Source: Chromatiales bacterium (lineage in GTDB: Bacteria > Pseudomonadota > Gammaproteobacteria > Steroidobacterales > GCA-2729495). Taken from it: a stretch of 64,000 nt of DNA. Below the pieces are notes generated by a model. That model was given only the letters and a program-made list of their open reading frames with translations. It ran no database searches and had not been told where the DNA came from. Positions 13,447 to 58,044 of this stretch are shown in pieces; the stretch's first letter is position 1; every line of letters starts with the position of its first letter. The translations under genes were made by a program, and so were the position numbers. The DNA lies in contig CP070671.1 in assembly GCA_020351875.1 (NCBI GenBank), forward strand, positions 1,692,603-1,756,602, written 5' to 3'.

Positions 13447-14256
13447 CTACCAGGGAATCGTGCGGCCGTTATAGAGAATCACCCGGCCGCCCATTTCCGG
13501 CTTGAGTTTCGCGATCATTTCGATCACGAGGGTCGCGCTTTCCTCGGCGCTGATCGATTTGCCGGTATAGCCAGAGTCTTTCAGCATCTGGGTGTCGACG
13601 CGGCCCGGCGAGATCATCGTGACGATGATCCCCGTGTCTTCCAGGTCCTTCTGCAAAGTGCCCATCGCGCTGATGTGTGCCGCCTTGCTCATTTTCATGA
13701 AGTAGTGGCCGCCGAACATGCTGCCGATGGTCGGCGTGCCCATGCCGCCGCCCAGGCTGACGATCTTTTTCTGCCGGCCAGCCTGCACGTTGCCGAGAAA
13801 CGCCTCCGACATGCGTAGCGAGCCGATCGTGTTCACGTCCAGCACGCGCTTCAGCTCTTCGTAATCGAAACTACCGAGCGTCTGTTTTTCCAGGTTCCCG
13901 TAGATACCGGCATTGTTGAGCAGCACGTCCACCGGCTGCCCGGCATAGGCTTCGGCCACCCGCTGCACGTCTCGATCCAGGGTAACGTCCAGCTCTTCGA
14001 TCGCGACGCGATCAAACTGGGCCGCCAGCATCTGCAGCTCCGCGGCGGCTTTGGGGCGACGGCAGGTCGCAATCACGTTCCAGCCCAGCGCGGCGTATTG
14101 CCGCGCGAACTCCAGGCCCAGGCCCCGGTTGGAACCGGTGATCAGGACCGTCGGCTGGTCCGGGTCGAAGCGGGCAGCCTCGCCTGCGGAAGTAACGCCA
14201 GCGCAGCCGCTGACCGACAACAGGCAAAGCAGGACCGAGGTATAAAAGGCACGCAT
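13447..14256 (-). CDS. SDR-fold lipoprotein lacking the catalytic Ser and Tyr
   Basis: A 269-residue short-chain-dehydrogenase-fold protein with a lipoprotein signal (LLSVSGC, Cys at about residue 18). The Rossmann elements are intact: TGSNRGLGLE for the cofactor and LLNNAGIYG for the structural NAG motif. The usual catalytic residues are not: the strand expected to carry Ser reads KKIVSLGGGMGTP, with Gly at that position, and the expected Y-x-x-x-K reads M-K-M-S-K. The Lys is kept while Tyr is replaced by Met; a Tyr occurs two residues earlier, out of register. An SDR anchored outside the cytoplasm would also lack NAD(P). It may be a binding protein or a non-enzymatic relic. Confidence 0.75.
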   Translation of the reverse strand: MRAFYTSVLLCLLSVSGCAGVTSAGEAARFDPDQPTVLITGSNRGLGLEFARQYAALGWNVIATCRRPKAAAELQMLAAQFDRVAIEELDVTLDRDVQRVAEAYAGQPVDVLLNNAGIYGNLEKQTLGSFDYEELKRVLDVNTIGSLRMSEAFLGNVQAGRQKKIVSLGGGMGTPTIGSMFGGHYFMKMSKAAHISAMGTLQKDLEDTGIIVTMISPGRVDTQMLKDSGYTGKSISAEESATLVIEMIAKLKPEMGGRVILYNGRTIPW

Positions 14257-14442
14257 GGCTGCAGCCCCGTCGAGAATCCACTGATAGCCTAACGACCCCG
14301 ACTGGAAACGGAAACCACCGCCCGCCCGTTGTAGCCGCTGTCCTGCTGCCGGCAGACGCTCCCGGCACCTCGTCGTTTCGGCCTACGGACGGTCGCCAGC
14401 CAGGCGTCGATGCGCAGGGCCGGTGTCTATATAGTGGCCCCG

Positions 14443-49228: not shown

Positions 49229-49254
49229 GGTCCCCGGAAGGGGGCCCTTTTTTT
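49229..49254 (+). terminator. Rho-independent terminator of the propeller operon
   Basis: GGTCCCC (49229-49235) and GGGGGCC (49240-49246) pair with one T-G wobble around a GGAA tetraloop, followed by C and seven T's (49248-49254). This is the clearest intrinsic terminator in the window. Its T run overlaps the stop codon of the convergent DctM gene. Confidence 0.85.
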
Positions 49255-50569
49255 ATGTCCCCAGCAGGCCCGGCAGCCACAGCGCGAGGCCGGGTGCCAG
49301 CAACAACAAACCGAGCAGCGCCGCATCACAGGCGAGATAGGGCGCCGCCGCGAGCGCGATGCGCGACAAGGTGGTGCCCGGCGGCGCCACGCCCAGCATC
49401 AGGAACAGCAGCAGCCCGAACGGCGGTGTGCTGAGGCTCATCTCCAGCGCCAGCAGCATCACGATGCCGAACCAGACCGGATCAAAGCCCAGGGCCGCGG
49501 CCAGCGGGAAGAACACCGGGATGGTCAGCAGCATGATGGAGATCTGGTCCATGAACATGCCCAGCACCAGCAGCACCGAGAACATCAGCACCAGCTTTGC
49601 CACCGGCCCGGCCTCCAGCGAAATCGCCCAGTCCACCGCGGCACCACTGGTGCCGGAAAAGGCCATCAGCTGACCGAATACCGATGAACCAACGATCAGC
49701 AGGAACACAGTGCCGGTGACGCTGACGGTGCTCAGCAAAGATTTTTGTAATGCCTGAAACGACAGACCGACCGTCGCGACGGCAAGTCCTGCGACCGACA
49801 GGGCACCGAAGGCTGCCGCCTCCGAGGGTGTCGCAATCCCGAGGATGATGAAGCCCACGACGGCAAAGATCACGATGCCCAGCGGCAGGATGTTGACGAC
49901 CACGAGCCGCAGTTTTTCCCGCGCGGTGACCGAGTCCACGTGGTAGGCGGGGGCGGCTTCCGGGTTGCGGCGCGCCTGCACGTAGATCACCAGCACATAC
50001 AGGGTCGCGAGGACCAGGCCGGGAACCAGGCCCGCCAGCAGCAACGCGCCGATATCCACGCGGGCGAGACTGCCGAGCAGCACACCGAGGGATGACGGCG
50101 GAATCAGCATGGCCAGTCCACCGGTGCCGATGATCGGGCCGATGGCCATGTGCGGCTGGTAACCGCGCCGGGTCATCTCCGGCACCATCAGCGAACCGAG
50201 CATGGCGGTGTTGGCCATCGTCGAGCCGGTCAGCGTCGAGAAGGTCGCACCGCCGGCTACGGTCAGGTAGCTGAGCCGGGCCGGGATGCGGCCGAACAGC
50301 GCATCCAGCGCATCGAAGACACGCAACGCGAGACCACTGTGAAACAGCAGTGCGCCCATCAGCACGAACATCGGCACGGCGACGAGCGTGAAGGTGGTAA
50401 TCAGCGCGGTGGAGTTGTCGACGAGCTGCAGTAACCCCGGCAGTCTGCCCATGATCAGCAGCGCGCCGAGCAGGTTGGCACCCAGAAAGGCAAAGGCCAC
50501 CGGGACGCCGGCCGCCATCAGCAGCGCGACCAGCGCAAAGACCAGCAAACCGGCGCCGGGGCCGCTCAT
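49253..50569 (-). CDS. dctM: TRAP transporter large permease (DctM)
   Basis: A 438-residue membrane protein with about 12 helices. Typical segments are LLAAGLPVAF-like (here LLMAAGVPVAFAFLGAN), PMFVLMGALLFHSGLA, GSTMANTAMLGSLMVPEM and LGMFMDQISIMLLTIPVFFP. DctM forms the transport path of Na+-driven TRAP systems. Its ATG overlaps the DctQ stop by 1 nt. Last gene of the TorT-kinase-TRAP operon. Confidence 0.94.
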   Translation of the reverse strand: MSGPGAGLLVFALVALLMAAGVPVAFAFLGANLLGALLIMGRLPGLLQLVDNSTALITTFTLVAVPMFVLMGALLFHSGLALRVFDALDALFGRIPARLSYLTVAGGATFSTLTGSTMANTAMLGSLMVPEMTRRGYQPHMAIGPIIGTGGLAMLIPPSSLGVLLGSLARVDIGALLLAGLVPGLVLATLYVLVIYVQARRNPEAAPAYHVDSVTAREKLRLVVVNILPLGIVIFAVVGFIILGIATPSEAAAFGALSVAGLAVATVGLSFQALQKSLLSTVSVTGTVFLLIVGSSVFGQLMAFSGTSGAAVDWAISLEAGPVAKLVLMFSVLLVLGMFMDQISIMLLTIPVFFPLAAALGFDPVWFGIVMLLALEMSLSTPPFGLLLFLMLGVAPPGTTLSRIALAAAPYLACDAALLGLLLLAPGLALWLPGLLGT

Positions 50570-51069
50570 CAGAAAGTATCCGGCCGTTGCGCGCCGGCCA
50601 GGGATTCACCGCGCACCAGCAGGCGCAAAAACTCCGTGCCCATCAAACCGAAGCCGACGACCAGCGGCAGGAACAGCAGCCAGCGGGGTGTGTCCAGCGA
50701 GCGCACATCGACCTCACCGCGGTGCCAGGCTTCGACCGCCAGCAGCATGGCCAGTGTTGCCATCAGTGCGCAGATCACGACGCACAGGGTGAGCACCGCG
50801 CGGTCGAGCCAGCGTCGCTTTTGTGCGTCCACGCGCCGGTACAGGACCTCCACGATGATGTGCCCGCGCATTCGCACGAGGTAGGGCGCCGCAGCCATCG
50901 TGAAATAGAGCAGCGCGTACTCGGTCAGCGCGACCGTGGATGCGGGCGGCTGCAGCCCGAGGTTGCGTGCAATGACGTCCCACGCGATCAACAGGCACAG
51001 TGCGCCGATCAGCGCGCCGGCGAAGCCCGCCAGGCCGTGAATCAATACGTGGTACGCGCGGCGGATCAC
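50569..51069 (-). CDS. dctQ: TRAP transporter small permease (DctQ)
   Basis: A 166-residue protein with four helices and the family layout: GALIGALCLLIAWDVIARNL, then SVALTEYALLYFTMAAAPYL (here TVALTEYALL), MRGHIIVEVLY and a C-terminal FLPLVVGFGLMGTEFL. It starts at GTG 51069, overlapping the DctP stop (GTGA). It pairs with DctM as the membrane unit. Confidence 0.92.
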   Translation of the reverse strand: MIRRAYHVLIHGLAGFAGALIGALCLLIAWDVIARNLGLQPPASTVALTEYALLYFTMAAAPYLVRMRGHIIVEVLYRRVDAQKRRWLDRAVLTLCVVICALMATLAMLLAVEAWHRGEVDVRSLDTPRWLLFLPLVVGFGLMGTEFLRLLVRGESLAGAQRPDTF

Positions 51070-52076
51070 TGCGCGTCACCTTCCGGGTAGAAGTACGGTT
51101 TGAGCTTGCGCGCAGCCTCGGGGGCACGTCGTGCCATTCGTGCCCAGACGACGTCGTGCGCCAGGGCCCGGTACGCATCGCCATGGGGCGCCGGTATCGG
51201 GGCCGACTGCAAGCCACGTTCGGCGAGCAGCGCCACTTCCCGATCCTGCAGTTCGAAGAAGCCTGCGCGCCCCCGTGGTTCGTAAGCCTCTGCCTGCTCC
51301 GCGAGAATCCGCCGTGCTGCCGGGCTCAGGGATTGCCAGCGGTCCAGGTTGATCTGCAGGCAAATGGACATCTGCAGGAACGATGGATCGATGCGATAGC
51401 GAATGAAGTTCTCCACGCCGAGATCCGGGATGCCGGTGGTCGTGAAGGCGAGGCCGTCGACGGTGCCCCGTTGCAGCGCGGTGTAGATTTCTTTGACCGC
51501 GATTTGCACTGGCCGGCCACCGAGCACGCTCAGCAGTTCGCGGTTCGACGGTGACGTGCGAATCTTCAGGCCCGCCAGGTTGGGCATCCCGTCAGCATCG
51601 AAACGCGGTTCGTCGGTCAGGTAGATGTTCACGCCGACGCCCGACTGCATCCAGCCCAGCAGATGCGCGTTGATGCGCCTGGCCCAGTAAGCCTGCAGCG
51701 CGTCGAAGCCGCCGTTGCGCCGCGCGTCCGCCGGCGTGATGGTCGAGGCGAAAATCGCATCGCCTTCCGGCAGCACGCCGCGGTAGTAGGTAATGGCGCC
51801 GAAGGCCATGTCGATCACACCCCGGCGCAGCGCATACAACAGCTGCGCCTGCGGGATCACCTCCGGGCCGCCGAGAAAGTCGATCTGCACCACGCCGCGG
51901 CCCGTCTCATTCACGGCGTCCACGTAGTCCATGAACAGCACGTTGAAGTTCTGCGGCTTGCTCCAGCTGCTGACCAGCGTCAGCCGCTGTTCATCGGCGC
52001 TGGCGCCACTTCCCGTGATCAGCCAACCTAGCAGGACAAGCCAGGGCAGTCGGAGTCTGGCACTCTTTTTGGTCAA
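51066..52076 (-). CDS. dctP: TRAP transporter solute-binding protein (DctP)
   Basis: A 336-residue periplasmic binding protein, signal peptide about residues 1-27. The start is a TTG at 52076 six bases after the kinase stop. LTLVSSWSKPQNFNVLFMDY, then GGPEVIPQAQLLYALRRGVI, LAGLKIRTSPSNRELLSVLG (conserved Arg for a carboxylate) and VDGLAFTTTGIPDLGVENFI are usual DctP features. Ligand not predictable; the conserved Arg argues for an organic acid. Confidence 0.92.
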   Translation of the reverse strand: MTKKSARLRLPWLVLLGWLITGSGASADEQRLTLVSSWSKPQNFNVLFMDYVDAVNETGRGVVQIDFLGGPEVIPQAQLLYALRRGVIDMAFGAITYYRGVLPEGDAIFASTITPADARRNGGFDALQAYWARRINAHLLGWMQSGVGVNIYLTDEPRFDADGMPNLAGLKIRTSPSNRELLSVLGGRPVQIAVKEIYTALQRGTVDGLAFTTTGIPDLGVENFIRYRIDPSFLQMSICLQINLDRWQSLSPAARRILAEQAEAYEPRGRAGFFELQDREVALLAERGLQSAPIPAPHGDAYRALAHDVVWARMARRAPEAARKLKPYFYPEGDAQ

Positions 52077-52082
52077 GGTTTC

Positions 52083-55000
52083 TTATGCCTGCGGGCTCTT
52101 TTGCAGGCTGGGCGATCGTTTGGCCGGCGTGGCTACGGCCTCGCGGACCCGGGCCAGCAACTGCTCGCGCGTACAGGCACTTTTTCTGACTACTTCCTCT
52201 ACGCGGCCGTTCAGGCGGGCTCGATCTTCCGGGGTCAAGGTCTTGGCAGTGACGACCACGACCGGGATGTCGTTCCATTCGGGATGCTCGCGTATCTCGG
52301 CGAGGAATTCGAAGCCGTCCATCACCGGCATCATCAGGTCCAGCAGGATCAGCGCGGGCGTTTGGTCGGCCATCAGGTCCAGCGCTTCGCGGCCGTTCCC
52401 GGCTTCCGCGATCGTCCAGCCCGTTTTCTCCAGCGCCCGCGACATGAGTTCGCGGGACTCAGCGTCGTCTTCCACCACAAGTACCGTGCCTCCCGCAGCC
52501 TTGTCCTGGCCACAACGCTCCAGCGCCTTGTGCAGCTGCTCGCGATCCACCGGTTTGGTCAGGTAGTCCACCGCGCCCAGCGAGTAACCGCGGGTCCGGT
52601 CATCGATCATGCTCAGCATGATGACCGGAATCTCGCGGAGATCCGGATCCGCCTTCAAGGCTCGCAGCACCGACCAGCCGTCCATCTCCGGCATCATCAC
52701 GTCGAGGGTGATCGCGGTGGGCCGCAGTTCGTGTGCCAGTTGCAGCCCCTGCTCACCGCTGAAAGCCGTCGCCACCGCGAAGCCGTCTTTCTTGAGGTAG
52801 CGGCCGATGATTTCGCAGGCTTCCGGGTCGTCATCGATGATCAGGATTGTTGTCTGGTCCCCAGCATCGCCTGCACTCTCTGCCGGAACCTCCGCTTTGA
52901 CGGTGGTCGGCTGCGGTGAGGTTGCCTGCCTGAGCTTCGTGCCCGGCACGTTTGATGGCACGTACACGGTAAACGTGGAGCCCTCGCCTACGGTGCTTTC
53001 CACGCTCAGTTTGCCGCCCAGCATCTGGCAGAAACGCCGCGATATGGCCAGGCCGAGTCCGGTGCCACCGTAGTCTCGCGTGGTGGACTCGTCGGCCTGG
53101 GTGAACTCCTGAAAGATGTGCTCGAGTTTGTCTGCTGGAATGCCGATGCCAGTATCGATGACCGCAAAAGTGAGCCGGTCTTTGTCCTGCTCTATCTTCC
53201 GGTCGATCCGCAATGTCACGGTGCCGCTCTCCGTGAACTTGGCCGCGTTTGATAGCAGGTTGAACAACGTCTGCCGCAGCTTGGTGATGTCCTGGCAAAT
53301 CACCCCGCCGGCCCCGGTTCGTTCTACCAGTAACTTGTTGCCGTGTTTCTTGACTAATGGCTGTGCTGTGGCGCTGACCTCGTCGATCAATTCGTCGAGA
53401 TCTATCTCTTCCGGGAACACGTCCATCTTGCCCGACTCGATCTTCGACAGGTCGAGCACGTCGTTGATCAGTGAAAGCAGGTGGGTGCCGGCGCTGTTGA
53501 TCTTTTTCAGGTCCGGGATAAAGTCTTCCTGTTCAAGTTCCTCGGCTTCCTCCATCAGCATTTCGCTGTAGCCGAGGATTGCATTCATCGGCGTGCGCAG
53601 TTCGTGGCTCATATTGGCGAGAAATGCACTCTTGGCCTCGTTGGCCGCATCGGCTGCGTCTTTGGCTGCCCGTAACGCGTCTTCTGTTTGCTTGCGCTCG
53701 GTAAGGTCGTGCCACACGCCGAGCATTGCGGTCTTACCTTCGAGTTCCACCGGCGTCATGCTGACTTCAACCAGGAATTCCTCTCCGTCCTTCTTGCGGT
53801 GCATCCACTCGAACAGGTGATGTCCCAGGCGGCGCGCAGTTTCATCCACCTCCAACGACTTCTCGTCAGAGCGACGTCCGTCCGGCTGAAACTCGGGCGA
53901 GAACTCAGACGGGTGATGTGACAGCAGGTCCTCCTTGTCGTCGTAACGCAACAGGCGGACTGCCGCTTCGTTGCAGTCGACGATGCCGTTATCATCGAAG
54001 ATCAGGTGGGCGTCAAAGGACTGCTCGAACAGTAACCGGAAGCGTTCCATGCTCGCCCTGAGCTCTTCTTCCACCAGTTTCTGCTCGGTTACGTCTATCT
54101 GGACGCCGGTGAAACGCAGCGGCGCGCCCTCATCGTCCCAGTCAGTGGTCTTGCCGATGCTGAGTATGGAGCGGTAATTGCCGTCTTTCGCCCGCAGGCG
54201 AAATTCCTGACGCAGCAATGGCGTTTTCTTCTCGACATGCTCGCGGAAGGCGGCAAACGCGCCGTCTACGTCGTCGGGATGCGCAATCCTGGTCCAGTCC
54301 TCGATACAACCGGTGAGGTCAGCACTGCAGTAACCGAGCATCGAAGCCCAGCGATCGTTGACGATGTATTCGTCGGTCTGCGGCCGGTAGTCGTAGACTC
54401 CGAGATCGGCGGCTTTCAGCGCGAGTTCGAGCCGTTCCCTGCTCTCTGCGAGGTCCGCTGTCGCTGCGCGCACGCGCTCGGTGATGTTCTGGTTGCGCCA
54501 CAGGAGTAGTGCGATGAACAGAGCAAGGACTGCAGTACCCCCGAGCCCGGCAAGTAACGTGAACCGCGCCAGTTTCTCGGGCGGGCCTCCGGCAAACTCT
54601 TCGGTAATGACCCAGCTCACACTCAGATCTGCACCCGCGCTGACCGTGCGATCGGTCACCACGTGCAGTGCGCCTGGCACTTCGTCGCCCAGGATCCGTT
54701 GCTTCTGGCCGTCCAGGAACCTGCCGTCCAGCTGCAGCTGCATGCCAGGAGGCACGCGAATCTCGAACAGGCCCTCGACGATGCCGGTGGAGTCGATTTT
54801 CCCGACAATGACGGCTTCGCCTTCCGGCGTCTGAATATTCAACGCCACCGCCGAGTACACGCGCCCGTCGGCCTCGAAGGGCGGACCCATGATCAGGTCA
54901 CCAAAACGATCGACGGCCTCGTCGACGGTATCTTTCAACCAGGGTTGATCGCCAAGGTGTCGGCCCTCGGCCAGCAGACCATAAGGATTGGTCGTGTACG

Positions 55001-55346
55001 TAATCTGCCATTCACCGTTTTCGCCGCGTCTCAGGTAGGCAGCACCATCCAGAAAGAAAGTCGTGGCACGCGACTCCAGGCTGTCATAGGCATCGAGGAA
55101 CTCCGCCTCCGTCAGGCTCGTGGTGTGCTCTGCCAGCGCCGCCAGCCCGGACAACGGGGCATAGCTTTCCTCCAGCCAGTTGAGCATGGTGCCGGTCAGC
55201 CACTGCCCGGCGTTGTCTGCCTGCGCGATCCAGGCACGGTAGGCGTCTTTCCGGAAAGCTTCGCTCAGTTGTCGTGAGCCGAAGGTCCCGGCAGCGAGCA
55301 GGATCAGCAGTATCGACCAGCGAATCAGTGGACCAAGGCGGTTCAA
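52083..55346 (-). CDS. Hybrid histidine kinase with CHASE-like sensor, two PAS and two receiver domains
   Basis: A 1087-residue membrane kinase, starting at TTG 55346 directly after the TorT-like stop. N-terminal helix (about residues 9-27), periplasmic sensor (about 35-275, CHASE-like), second helix (about 278-298), two PAS/PAC domains (about 315-570), HisKA with phospho-His 581 in ANMSHELRTPMNAILGYSE, HATPase (about 690-815; NLLSNAAKFT, GTGLGLAISRRF), then two receiver domains with phospho-Asp 882 (DVMMPEMDG) and 1003 (DLMMPVMDG). No Hpt and no DNA-binding output domain. It presumably reads the ligand state of the adjacent TorT-like protein and passes phosphate to an unlinked partner. Confidence 0.92.
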   Translation of the reverse strand: MNRLGPLIRWSILLILLAAGTFGSRQLSEAFRKDAYRAWIAQADNAGQWLTGTMLNWLEESYAPLSGLAALAEHTTSLTEAEFLDAYDSLESRATTFFLDGAAYLRRGENGEWQITYTTNPYGLLAEGRHLGDQPWLKDTVDEAVDRFGDLIMGPPFEADGRVYSAVALNIQTPEGEAVIVGKIDSTGIVEGLFEIRVPPGMQLQLDGRFLDGQKQRILGDEVPGALHVVTDRTVSAGADLSVSWVITEEFAGGPPEKLARFTLLAGLGGTAVLALFIALLLWRNQNITERVRAATADLAESRERLELALKAADLGVYDYRPQTDEYIVNDRWASMLGYCSADLTGCIEDWTRIAHPDDVDGAFAAFREHVEKKTPLLRQEFRLRAKDGNYRSILSIGKTTDWDDEGAPLRFTGVQIDVTEQKLVEEELRASMERFRLLFEQSFDAHLIFDDNGIVDCNEAAVRLLRYDDKEDLLSHHPSEFSPEFQPDGRRSDEKSLEVDETARRLGHHLFEWMHRKKDGEEFLVEVSMTPVELEGKTAMLGVWHDLTERKQTEDALRAAKDAADAANEAKSAFLANMSHELRTPMNAILGYSEMLMEEAEELEQEDFIPDLKKINSAGTHLLSLINDVLDLSKIESGKMDVFPEEIDLDELIDEVSATAQPLVKKHGNKLLVERTGAGGVICQDITKLRQTLFNLLSNAAKFTESGTVTLRIDRKIEQDKDRLTFAVIDTGIGIPADKLEHIFQEFTQADESTTRDYGGTGLGLAISRRFCQMLGGKLSVESTVGEGSTFTVYVPSNVPGTKLRQATSPQPTTVKAEVPAESAGDAGDQTTILIIDDDPEACEIIGRYLKKDGFAVATAFSGEQGLQLAHELRPTAITLDVMMPEMDGWSVLRALKADPDLREIPVIMLSMIDDRTRGYSLGAVDYLTKPVDREQLHKALERCGQDKAAGGTVLVVEDDAESRELMSRALEKTGWTIAEAGNGREALDLMADQTPALILLDLMMPVMDGFEFLAEIREHPEWNDIPVVVVTAKTLTPEDRARLNGRVEEVVRKSACTREQLLARVREAVATPAKRSPSLQKSPQA

Positions 55347-56468
55347 CTAGTCCCCCACGCTGAACATGGCCCGGAACCCACGCGGCGGCAGGGTGGTTGA
55401 GGAATCCCAGCCGGGTAGAGTCTCGCGGTCGATTACGATCACGCGTGGCGCCGCATGCTTGAAGTAGGGCTTCTCCTCCAGGATGCGCACCATCATGTCG
55501 ACGGCCATGCGCGCCTGGATCACGTTCGAGTCGGCGGGAGCGGCGATGATAGTGCCACGCTTGATGCCTTGGTGAACCCCCGGACCGTAATAGTAGGCCA
55601 GTACCCCGATGTCCCCATCGAGGCCACGCCGTCGCAGCACGCTCACGGCGGCTTCCGCGCTGACCGTGGTGCCGACGATAAAGTCCAGCTGCGTCGAGGC
55701 CTGGTCGCCGAGTTCATCCAGCACGGCTTCGATCAGGCTGGTCTGGGTGGCCTTGCCGGTGTCGCCTTTCCTGGTCGCGATGATGCGGATGTTGCTGTCG
55801 GCCACTGCGGCATTGAAGCCCCGGTCACCGGCTTCTACCCAACCCGCTCCTTCCGGCCCCGGAAACCACGCAACCCTGATCTCGCCGCTGTCTGGCGCCA
55901 AGAGTTCCTGGAGGTATTGCCCAGCCTGGAAACCGGAGTCGTAGTAGGTGACGGCGGCGCGGGCCGTGATGTCGGGTGAGTTGATGCCGTTGATCAGGTC
56001 CAGCACTGGTATGCTGCGCGCGCGCGTCGCAGTCACCAGGTCATTGAGCCCGTCGGCGTCGATGGCACTGAGAATCAGGCCGTCTACGGGTTGGCCCTGG
56101 ATACCGTCAGCGAGGCACTCTTTCACTTGCTGGCGTTGCACCTCCAGGCGGTCGTAGCCGCCGGCTTCATAGATGGCCAGGTTCACTTCCATGCGCCGGG
56201 CTTCATCGACCAGGCCGAAATTCACTGCCAGCCAATAAGCATCTTTCAGATGCGGAATCGACACGCAGATGTTCCAGCGTTTCTCGGCCTTCTCCAGCGG
56301 CACATAGCTCTGTTGGGATCGTTGACGTTCGGTATTGAACGGTGGGTCCCAGACATCGACGGTGACCGGGTACCACTGCCCGGCTGACAGAGAGGCTGGT
56401 ATCAGCAGGCACAGTGCGGCGGCCAGGCTGCAGCGGCGCCGCTTGGAGAGACGGGGATCATGCATCAC
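55347..56468 (-). CDS. TorT-like periplasmic sugar-binding-fold sensor protein
   Basis: A 373-residue secreted protein with a signal peptide (about residues 1-29, ending SLSAG). The mature part starts WYPVTVDVWDPPFN and has the type I periplasmic-binding fold: KRWNICVSIPHLKDAYWLAV, VDGLILSAIDADGL, GSPDITA-like (NSPDITARAAV), WFPGPEGAGW and GVLAYYYGPGVHQGIKRGTI. This matches TorT, which binds TMAO and controls the kinase TorS. No TMAO reductase genes are here. The gene abuts the hybrid kinase gene with no gap. Confidence 0.85.
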   Translation of the reverse strand: MMHDPRLSKRRRCSLAAALCLLIPASLSAGQWYPVTVDVWDPPFNTERQRSQQSYVPLEKAEKRWNICVSIPHLKDAYWLAVNFGLVDEARRMEVNLAIYEAGGYDRLEVQRQQVKECLADGIQGQPVDGLILSAIDADGLNDLVTATRARSIPVLDLINGINSPDITARAAVTYYDSGFQAGQYLQELLAPDSGEIRVAWFPGPEGAGWVEAGDRGFNAAVADSNIRIIATRKGDTGKATQTSLIEAVLDELGDQASTQLDFIVGTTVSAEAAVSVLRRRGLDGDIGVLAYYYGPGVHQGIKRGTIIAAPADSNVIQARMAVDMMVRILEEKPYFKHAAPRVIVIDRETLPGWDSSTTLPPRGFRAMFSVGD

Positions 56469-56537: not shown

Positions 56538-57947
56538 CTACGCAGACGGTGATCCTGCGGGCTGCGCGGCGCTTTCCTCCACCGCGCGTTGCTTGCGGAA
56601 CACGCTGCGCCACCAGAGCCCACCTACGCCGCCGGCGACGAAGTTGGCGGTGCAGGCCGCAGCAAACACGCCTATGAGCCCGAACAGCTGCGCGAAGATG
56701 AAAGCCAACGGCGCATAGACGAGGACCGTTCGGCACAGAGAGGTGACCATTGCCTGCAGCGGCTTGCCGATGGCATTGAATGCGCCGTTGAGGGACATTG
56801 CTACGCCGAGGGCCGCATAGCTGATTGGCACGATGCGCATGTGCATCGTGGCGGTATCGAGAGCCTTTTCGTTCTCGGTGAATAACCCAGCGACAAGTGG
56901 CCCGACACCAAACATGACCGCAGCCACGATGAGTCCGTAGATCAGTATGAAGCGATAGCACCACTTGATGCCGTCTTCCACCCGGTCGAAGTGTTGCCCA
57001 CCGAAGTTCTGCCCGACGAACGGCGTGACGGCGGCACTCAAGGCCATCAGCGCCAGCAGCGACAGGCCCTCGAAGCGCGACGCAATGCCGAAACCGGCCA
57101 CGGCCTCCGGACCGAACTGGGCGACCTGGTAAGTAATGAAGGCGGTGGTTAGCGGCGCGACCAGGCTGCTGGTCATCGAAGGTATGCCGACGTGCAGGAT
57201 GCGTTGCCAGGAATCCCGCAGCAGGTCCAGGTGCAACGCGCGGAACTGGATCAGCTTGTCGCGGAAGTAAACAACGCCGACCGAGGCGCACATGGTGATG
57301 ATGTTCGACGCGACCGTGGCAATGGCCGCGCCTTCGACACCGAGGGCGGGAAAGCCGAAGTAGCCAAAGATCAGGATCGGATCCAGCACGATGTTCAGCA
57401 CCGCGGCGGTGGTCATGATCTTTGCCGGTGTGGTTGCATCGCCGGACGCCCGCAACACCGAGTTGGTGATCATCGGCATCACCAGGAAAATGCCACCGTA
57501 GTAGTAGATGCTCATGTAGCTGACGATGATCGGTAGCGTGGTGTCGTCGGCACCGAGCGTGCGGAACACGGGTTCGATGGTCGCGAGCCCCAGGGCCACC
57601 ACGCTGACGCCGATGACAACGCCGAGGAAAATCGCGTGTAGCGTCACGCGCTCGGCCTCTTCGCGTTCCTGCGCACCGAATAACCTGGAGACCACCGACG
57701 ACGTGCCGATGCCGATGCCCATCGTGATCGCGCCGACGATGAAATTCACTGGGAAGGTAAAGCTGATCGCCGCCAGCTCCATCGTTCCGATCTGGCCGAC
57801 AAAGAAGGTGTCGGCCAGGTTGTAGGAGATGAGGGCAATCATCCCCATCATCATTGGCAGCATCAGCGAGCGAATGGATTCGCCGACAGGTCCCTGGGTG
57901 AGGCGGGGTCTGCCCTTGCCGGGAGATTTTTTCGCTGGCTGCATCAT
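56538..57947 (-). CDS. MATE-family multidrug/cation antiporter
   Basis: A 469-residue membrane protein (ATG 57947 chosen; the next codon is also ATG) with 12 helices. Family segments include LMLPMMMGMIALISYNLADT, FVGQIGTMELAAISFTFPVN, GIGIGTSSVVSRLFGAQERE and, in the second half, GFGIASRFEGLSLLALMALS and FVGQNFGGQHFDRV. It exports drugs or metabolites using a Na+ or H+ gradient. It lies 69 nt upstream of the TorT-like gene in the same direction and could share its transcript, but no functional link is evident. Confidence 0.92.
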   Translation of the reverse strand: MMQPAKKSPGKGRPRLTQGPVGESIRSLMLPMMMGMIALISYNLADTFFVGQIGTMELAAISFTFPVNFIVGAITMGIGIGTSSVVSRLFGAQEREEAERVTLHAIFLGVVIGVSVVALGLATIEPVFRTLGADDTTLPIIVSYMSIYYYGGIFLVMPMITNSVLRASGDATTPAKIMTTAAVLNIVLDPILIFGYFGFPALGVEGAAIATVASNIITMCASVGVVYFRDKLIQFRALHLDLLRDSWQRILHVGIPSMTSSLVAPLTTAFITYQVAQFGPEAVAGFGIASRFEGLSLLALMALSAAVTPFVGQNFGGQHFDRVEDGIKWCYRFILIYGLIVAAVMFGVGPLVAGLFTENEKALDTATMHMRIVPISYAALGVAMSLNGAFNAIGKPLQAMVTSLCRTVLVYAPLAFIFAQLFGLIGVFAAACTANFVAGGVGGLWWRSVFRKQRAVEESAAQPAGSPSA

Positions 57948-58044
57948 GACGGCGGCGAGTCTATAGCGCCCGGGTGGGGATAGACAGCGCTCCGGCACGC
58001 CGCGCCGGGCCAGCGCCACCCCGTGAACCTGGAAAACAAAGCCC

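Follow-up and report, generated by a model that had tools for sequence, protein, structure and literature searches.

The window analysed here is a stretch of 64,000 nt from Chromatiales bacterium (bases 1692603-1756602 of a one-contig genome of 3.49 Mb, 95.6% complete). This report concerns two adjacent genes within it, one for a TorT-like periplasmic binding protein and one for a hybrid receptor kinase, together with the genes of a tripartite ATP-independent periplasmic (TRAP) importer, dctP, dctQ and dctM (dctPQM), that lie directly after them. The original prediction, made from the letters alone, had taken these five leftward genes for a cassette in which a TorT-TorS sensing system had been rewired from respiration to solute import, with the importer in the place of trimethylamine N-oxide (TMAO) reductase. 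The features are given below, with Pfam calls taken at E<=0.001 (TM, transmembrane segment; REC, receiver domain; aa, amino acids; pLDDT, predicted local distance difference test).

55347..56468, minus strand: TorT-like periplasmic binding protein, type I, ribose-binding-like fold (373 aa; Pfam Peripla_BP_4)
52083..55346, minus strand: hybrid receptor kinase, TM-CHASE-like sensor-TM-PAS-PAS-HisKA-HATPase-REC-REC (1087 aa; Pfam and hydrophobic segments)
54576..55259, minus strand: predicted CHASE-like periplasmic sensor domain, kinase aa 30-257 (model pLDDT 90, VIA-align; without a Pfam family)
52953..53636, minus strand: HisKA and HATPase_c kinase core, kinase aa 571-798 (Pfam)
52521..52847, minus strand: first receiver domain, kinase aa 834-942 (Pfam Response_reg)
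52176..52484, minus strand: second receiver domain, kinase aa 955-1057 (Pfam Response_reg)
51066..52076, minus strand: DctP, TRAP solute-binding protein (336 aa; PF03480)
50569..51069, minus strand: DctQ, TRAP small permease (166 aa; PF04290)
49253..50569, minus strand: DctM, TRAP large permease (438 aa; PF06808, and TIGR00786 above cut-off)
56538..58019, minus strand: MATE transporter gene (Pfam)

Order, spacing and domain content were as first described. The TorT-like gene starts at GTG, with ATG as its second codon. TTG is the predicted start of the kinase gene (0 nt from the TorT-like gene) and of the DctP gene (6 nt after the kinase); the former position is consistent with that in relatives, and in G003, a genome of the same genus, a TTG at a like place, overlapped by the MATE stop, can be read as the dctP start. 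DctQ overlaps DctP by 4 nt and DctM overlaps DctQ by 1 nt. The kinase has hydrophobic segments at aa 4-22 and aa 259-284 and contains PAS_3, PAS_9, HisKA, HATPase_c and the two Response_reg domains; the Pfam scan found in it no DNA-binding domain and no Hpt domain, which TorS carries.

The importer is complete, with DctP, DctQ and DctM all above Pfam cut-offs, and the nearest solved relative of DctP is 4mnc (E 2.9e-48), named a TRAP dicarboxylate transporter DctP subunit. Neither a TMAO reductase nor TorR is encoded beside the pair, as had been noted for the former, and a search of the genome with E. coli TorA gave nine matched places, none of them close (best 30% identity, E 5e-34), which are presumably distant molybdopterin-type enzymes. 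A promoter scan of the region gave no sigma-70-like site where chance alone would give 1.8, an uninformative outcome.

TorT-like genes and their neighbours

A search with the TorT-like protein gave one match in the window genome. The protein passes the TorT model NF008185 (PRK10936; 341 bits, cut-off 200) and fails the TorT model TIGR02955 (253 bits, cut-off 310). Its nearest solved structure is 4yhs (47% identical), titled an ATP-binding cassette (ABC) solute-binding protein and coming from Bradyrhizobium, and it is nearer to 4yhs than to TorT itself both by sequence and by predicted model (pLDDT 92; E 2.5e-45 for 4yhs, 3.2e-28 for TorT, 3o1i).

Relatives were sought with alignment A1 in one genome per species (84,980 species). 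At least 545 were confirmed and the best 80 kept, of which L026, whose contig ends after torT, was left out, so that 79 loci were counted. A receptor with the sensor of the window kinase lies beside torT in 30 of the 79; the other 49 (among L045-L098) have an ABC importer instead. For 29 of the 30, an N-terminus matching the sensor is found just downstream of torT, and the thirtieth, L040, was added through a partial match. Matches to pxpA, accC, kipI and kipA are present in 45 of the 49 ABC-linked loci, the remaining four being cut by contig ends. An apparent fusion of TorT and receptor in one frame at L027 was rejected as the product of a scaffold gap (a run of N).

A tree of 90 TorT-like proteins places all those linked to a receptor in a single clade (support 99/83), which holds 29 loci, the window, the same-genus genome G001 and L040. 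The window and G001 proteins are sisters within it (100/96). Four TorS-linked proteins including E. coli TorT form a separate clade (100/99) and the remaining 54 are ABC-linked. The window protein does not fall inside the TorS-linked clade, which has long branches, and the deep joins of the tree are unsure because of the long branches of the E. coli, Vibrio and Paracoccus proteins and of two ABC-linked rows. The pairing of a TorT-like protein with a receptor of the window type thus recurs, and the TorT-like proteins so paired fall in a single clade.

Plasmids hold further TorT-like genes (59 records match), and eight regions were inspected, one of which (L102) is without annotation. In five of the seven annotated loci (L010-L012, L014, L103), genes for an ABC ATPase and permease come after torT. 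The neighbours also include pxpA, accC and kipI/kipA-like genes at four of these five and hydantoinase/oxoprolinase genes at L103. Such surroundings suggest that the ABC-linked proteins serve to take up a lactam-like compound and not to sense TMAO. At the other two plasmid loci (L013 from Paracoccus and L015 from Leisingera), genes for TorT, a TorS-like kinase and a regulator stand next to an ABC importer of glycine-betaine type, and no TMAO reductase is listed within their 8 kb flanks, for which the gene table is incomplete. TorT-TorS sets beside importers, not TMAO reductase, therefore already exist elsewhere, and proteins annotated as "TMAO reductase system TorT" often occur in other settings, as in these seven loci. 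Among the neighbours seen at other loci, a RACo-like corrinoid activation gene lies directly upstream of torT at L037:105-1814, a possible hint of methylated-amine metabolism, and at L029:2169-6569 the same place is taken by a 1466-aa protein with NMT1-like, SBP_bac_3 and PAS domains and a weak dCache match.

Five alignment positions of the TorT-like proteins correspond to what we take to be the aromatic and acidic TMAO pocket of TorT. Every one of the 89 rows with a class label (31 receptor-linked, 54 ABC-linked and 4 TorS-linked; the ninetieth, L040, carried none and was left out) has D76, Y78, W79 and Y293. Position 175 is W in all four TorS-linked proteins, either F or Y in all 31 receptor-linked proteins (Y in the window) and F in 53 of 54 ABC-linked proteins. 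If these positions do form the pocket, its aromatic-acidic character would be kept and its wall changed, and the ligand may be related to TMAO without being TMAO itself.

The receptor and its relation to the TorT-like protein

The sensor domain has no credible Pfam family in any of ten sensors tested (E up to 10), and PF03924 CHASE is not matched. A sensor profile searched against the sequences of the PDB matched only one chemoreceptor (E 0.057). The predicted model of the domain shows the long helix and tandem PAS-like subdomains by which a CHASE fold is recognised, the subdomains being alpha/beta, with nine strands between the membrane helices. In VIA-align, CHASE domains are the top matches of the model (AHK4, Z 19.9, root-mean-square deviation 2.4, 208 aligned; PcrK, Z 18.1), followed by sporulation kinase D (Z 16.0) and then Cache-type sensors; the sensors of LuxQ and TorS are not among the 50 matches listed, which excludes nothing. 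Judged on the model, the domain is CHASE-like by fold, resembling the sensors of cytokinin receptors, and not a CHASE member by sequence. In two torT-linked receptors (L034:11058-13295 and L169:84-902), a MASE1 membrane region precedes the sensor.

Behind this sensor the receptors differ. Among 26 scanned besides that of the window, 17 carry HisKA/HATPase (seven ending in Hpt, six complete without it and four cut by the contig end), two SpoIIE, two GGDEF and one GAF only, and the remaining four have PAS or MASE1 and no visible output domain, three of them cut by contig ends. The GGDEF form occurs, for instance, in Neptuniibacter, a cultured relative. As far as domain content can tell, the output parts of the receptor are exchanged between relatives.

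The sensor itself follows the neighbouring gene. The sensor can be aligned over 27 loci. Across 26 loci, with the near-copies L043 and L090 dropped from the test, TorT and sensor distances correlate with r 0.77, a value reached in none of 2000 permutations. In the 18 loci with a kinase core the correlation is 0.78 for TorT and sensor, 0.40 for TorT and core and 0.33 for sensor and core (partial correlations 0.74 vs 0.24). The sensor tracks TorT, the product of another gene, better than it tracks the core in its own chain, and it is mainly for this reason that we infer a physical partnership between the two. In a literature search at the level of listings and passages, with subscription papers mostly outside its reach, no description of a TorT-like/CHASE-like pairing was found.

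The original prediction had placed the output partner of the kinase elsewhere, and a candidate was indeed found. At the sister locus L019, a receiver open reading frame of 124 aa overlaps that of torT by 14 nt. Its counterpart in the window genome, G000:C1:2991543-2991899, is 76% identical (next best 37-40%), and 23 nt upstream of it is the gene of a paralogous hybrid kinase (kinase and receiver together at G000:C1:2988571-2991905, equal to L018:5572-8906). That kinase has the order PAS, GAF, PAS, HisKA, HATPase, REC, REC, shows no clear membrane segment and is 63% identical to the window kinase over kinase-REC-REC. From this one sister locus, the unlinked single-receiver protein is the best candidate for the phosphate acceptor.

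Taken together, we propose that the two genes encode a sensing module of the LuxP/LuxQ kind, with the TorT-like protein and the kinase as its parts, a reading to which we give a probability of about 0.6. The periplasmic TorT-like protein would bind a small solute and, as adjacency and co-divergence predict, dock on the CHASE-like domain of the receptor, as LuxP, itself ribose-binding-like, does on LuxQ. The signal would then be relayed by the second membrane helix into the PAS-kinase core, and phosphate would pass to the receiver domains and on to a separate single-receiver protein such as the candidate above. Comparison of the loci further shows the module to be portable, with exchangeable output parts. 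A stronger form, to which we would give even odds, is a co-evolving pair in which the sensor reads the binding protein and not free ligand, with outputs exchanged freely among kinase phosphorelay, cyclic di-GMP synthesis and SpoIIE phosphatase, in several proteobacterial classes and, if the metagenome bins are named rightly, in other phyla too. Were the pair to work as proposed, the question of how CHASE-type receptors get their signals could be put to a defined system, and the pair would show one sensing unit wired to kinases, cyclic di-GMP enzymes and phosphatases; to our knowledge, the bacterial ligands of such receptors are mostly unknown.

Several observations weigh against the proposed module. 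Foldseek puts a tandem Cache domain first for the sensor model, with modest scores, and AHK4 only 15th. The correlations of TorT with core and of sensor with core also exceed all 2000 permutations, and the co-divergence test leaves shared ancestry in, with the core as its sole internal control. Most receptor loci are contigs from metagenome bins, and the organism names given to these bins may be wrong; the TorT-like genes of L024 and L043 are at zero distance although the two loci are filed under different groups. When the sensor profile was run in reverse over 27 genomes reached through receptor loci, that is, chosen via TorT, it gave 35 rows, of which 30 have torT beside them. Nearly all of these had been found via TorT before, and just one new close sensor copy with torT was added (G508:C79). 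The other five rows are four divergent places without torT. In a draw of 398 genomes from the phylum that did not start from TorT, the sensor was found only in the window genome itself and as one weak partial match (E 8.5e-7); the module is therefore rare. Finally, in G001 an antisense gene separates the module from the TRAP genes.

The TRAP importer and rival readings

That the module controls the TRAP importer is possible and is the weakest step of the proposal. Its closest rival holds that the TRAP neighbourhood is incidental, the module having been inserted there while controlling genes elsewhere, and this we rate only a little short of an even chance. TRAP genes beside torT were sought by tblastn with the window's own proteins (E<=1e-5), a search that could miss a distant TRAP type. 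They adjoin torT in none of the 79 surveyed loci, many of which are short, and dctPQM adjoins the pair only in the window and in one same-genus genome (G001). Of 24 other receptor loci, downstream sequence of at least 1.5 kb is available for 13, and none of the 13 has DctP, DctQ or DctM there; in the nearest relatives (L019, L020, L021) the sequence stops before such genes could be seen. Distant, non-adjoining TRAP matches occur at L057, L060, L094 and the plasmid locus L015.

Relatives also carry the TRAP row without the module. DctP relatives (E<=1e-30) are present in 15 of 60 genomes searched, the window genome and G001 included. Of the 13 besides these two, G028 is a contig-end fragment and was left out, and the remaining 12 were fetched. 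None of the 12 has torT or the window kinase, and three same-genus genomes (G002, G003, G004) have no TorT-like match at E<=1e-30. MATE stands directly before dctP in six of the 12, namely G003 from the same genus, G016, G031, G019 and G012 from the same family and G051 from another, and five of these six share FAA-hydrolase, dienelactone-hydrolase-like and AMP-ligase neighbours. For the other six, MATE lies 1.7 kb upstream in G027 and has no match in five. Because relatives carry the MATE-dctPQM row without the pair, the simplest history is that the pair was probably inserted, in the same direction, into an older MATE-dctPQM row in this genus; loss of the pair from the other genomes is less simple.

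In G001 the pair is flanked by antisense genes on both sides, an M48 peptidase gene and two others before it and a SnoaL-like gene after it (L017:7168-9678 and 13874-14374). The latter lies between kinase and dctP, and the pair and dctPQM are therefore not one operon there. An incidental neighbourhood would also agree with a kinase that has no DNA-binding domain, but in the window both genes of the pair run in the direction of the operon, 69 nt from MATE and 6 nt from dctP. The five-gene order, which had been expected to be conserved elsewhere, was thus rejected as a conserved cassette, and the notion that the importer regularly takes the place of TMAO reductase is not supported. On the genomes compared, the order is a local arrangement and the recurring unit is the TorT-like/CHASE-like receptor pair.

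It is unlikely, in our view, that the CHASE-like domain binds a ligand of its own, as AHK4 and PcrK do, with the TorT-like protein merely modulating or scavenging that ligand. AHK4 with bound cytokinins is among the structures that match best, and the divergent sensor copies (about 25% identical; three in G507 and one in G512, L165-L168) have no torT within the 7-8 kb fetched; one of three such sensors scanned gives a sub-threshold CHASE match (15.6 vs 25 bits). Against this, every close sensor copy seen adjoins torT, in genomes chosen through TorT, and the sensor co-diverges with TorT. We consider it very improbable that the TorT-like protein acts in transport as a further solute-binding protein, like its ABC-linked kin: its closest solved relative is titled an ABC solute-binding protein and 49 of 79 loci are ABC-linked, but the TRAP importer has its own DctP, the scan of neighbouring genes turned up none of ABC type and the receptor-linked proteins form a separate clade.

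Descent from a TorT-TorS respiratory system rewired to control the TRAP importer is largely refuted, since the passed TorT model NF008185 and the TRAP genes directly after the pair are outweighed by a kinase that fails the TorS models (TIGR02956, 315 vs 676.5 bits; NF008543, 195 vs 982 bits), a sensor fold that differs from that of TorS, a TorT-like protein outside the TorS-linked clade and a TRAP adjacency seen in this genus only. The failed TorS models, and an alpha/beta sensor model set against an all-helical TorS sensor, are why the receptor is not taken for a TorS; a BLAST search for the sensor as a TorS homologue gave nothing meaningful (best E 0.38), and a literature search joining TorT-TorS with a TRAP transporter found nothing. 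The idea of a respiration sensor rewired to TRAP import at this locus is corrected accordingly.

Comparison with known systems

The window pair resembles the TMAO-sensing system TorT-TorS-TorR in having a TorT-family gene beside a hybrid kinase gene. It differs in a kinase without Hpt, in the absence of TMAO reductase and TorR genes beside the pair and in position 175 (Y here, W in four of four TorS-linked proteins). The sensor also differs, being CHASE-like with nine strands in the model, whereas the TorS periplasmic sensor is listed as all-helical in PMC8534201.

The ABC-linked TorT-like proteins of the 4yhs type include the nearest solved structure, but the window torT has a receptor beside it, unlike those loci with their mostly pxpA, accC, kipI and kipA neighbours. 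AHK4 and PcrK are the closest folds of the sensor; the window sensor departs from them in lacking a Pfam CHASE match and in being paired with a binding-protein gene.

LuxP-LuxQ, the autoinducer-2 receptor, is the nearest parallel in arrangement. There, according to PMC8534201, a hybrid kinase reads a periplasmic binding protein through its tandem PAS-like sensor, and the same combination is predicted here from genes and models. In contrast to LuxP-LuxQ, the binding protein is of the TorT family, the sensor is CHASE-like, the kinase fails the LuxQ model (289 vs 1200 bits) and the output is SpoIIE or GGDEF in some relatives of the window receptor. A binding protein paired with a receptor is thus a known kind of system, and on this comparison the TorT-like and CHASE-like version looks like a real variant of it.

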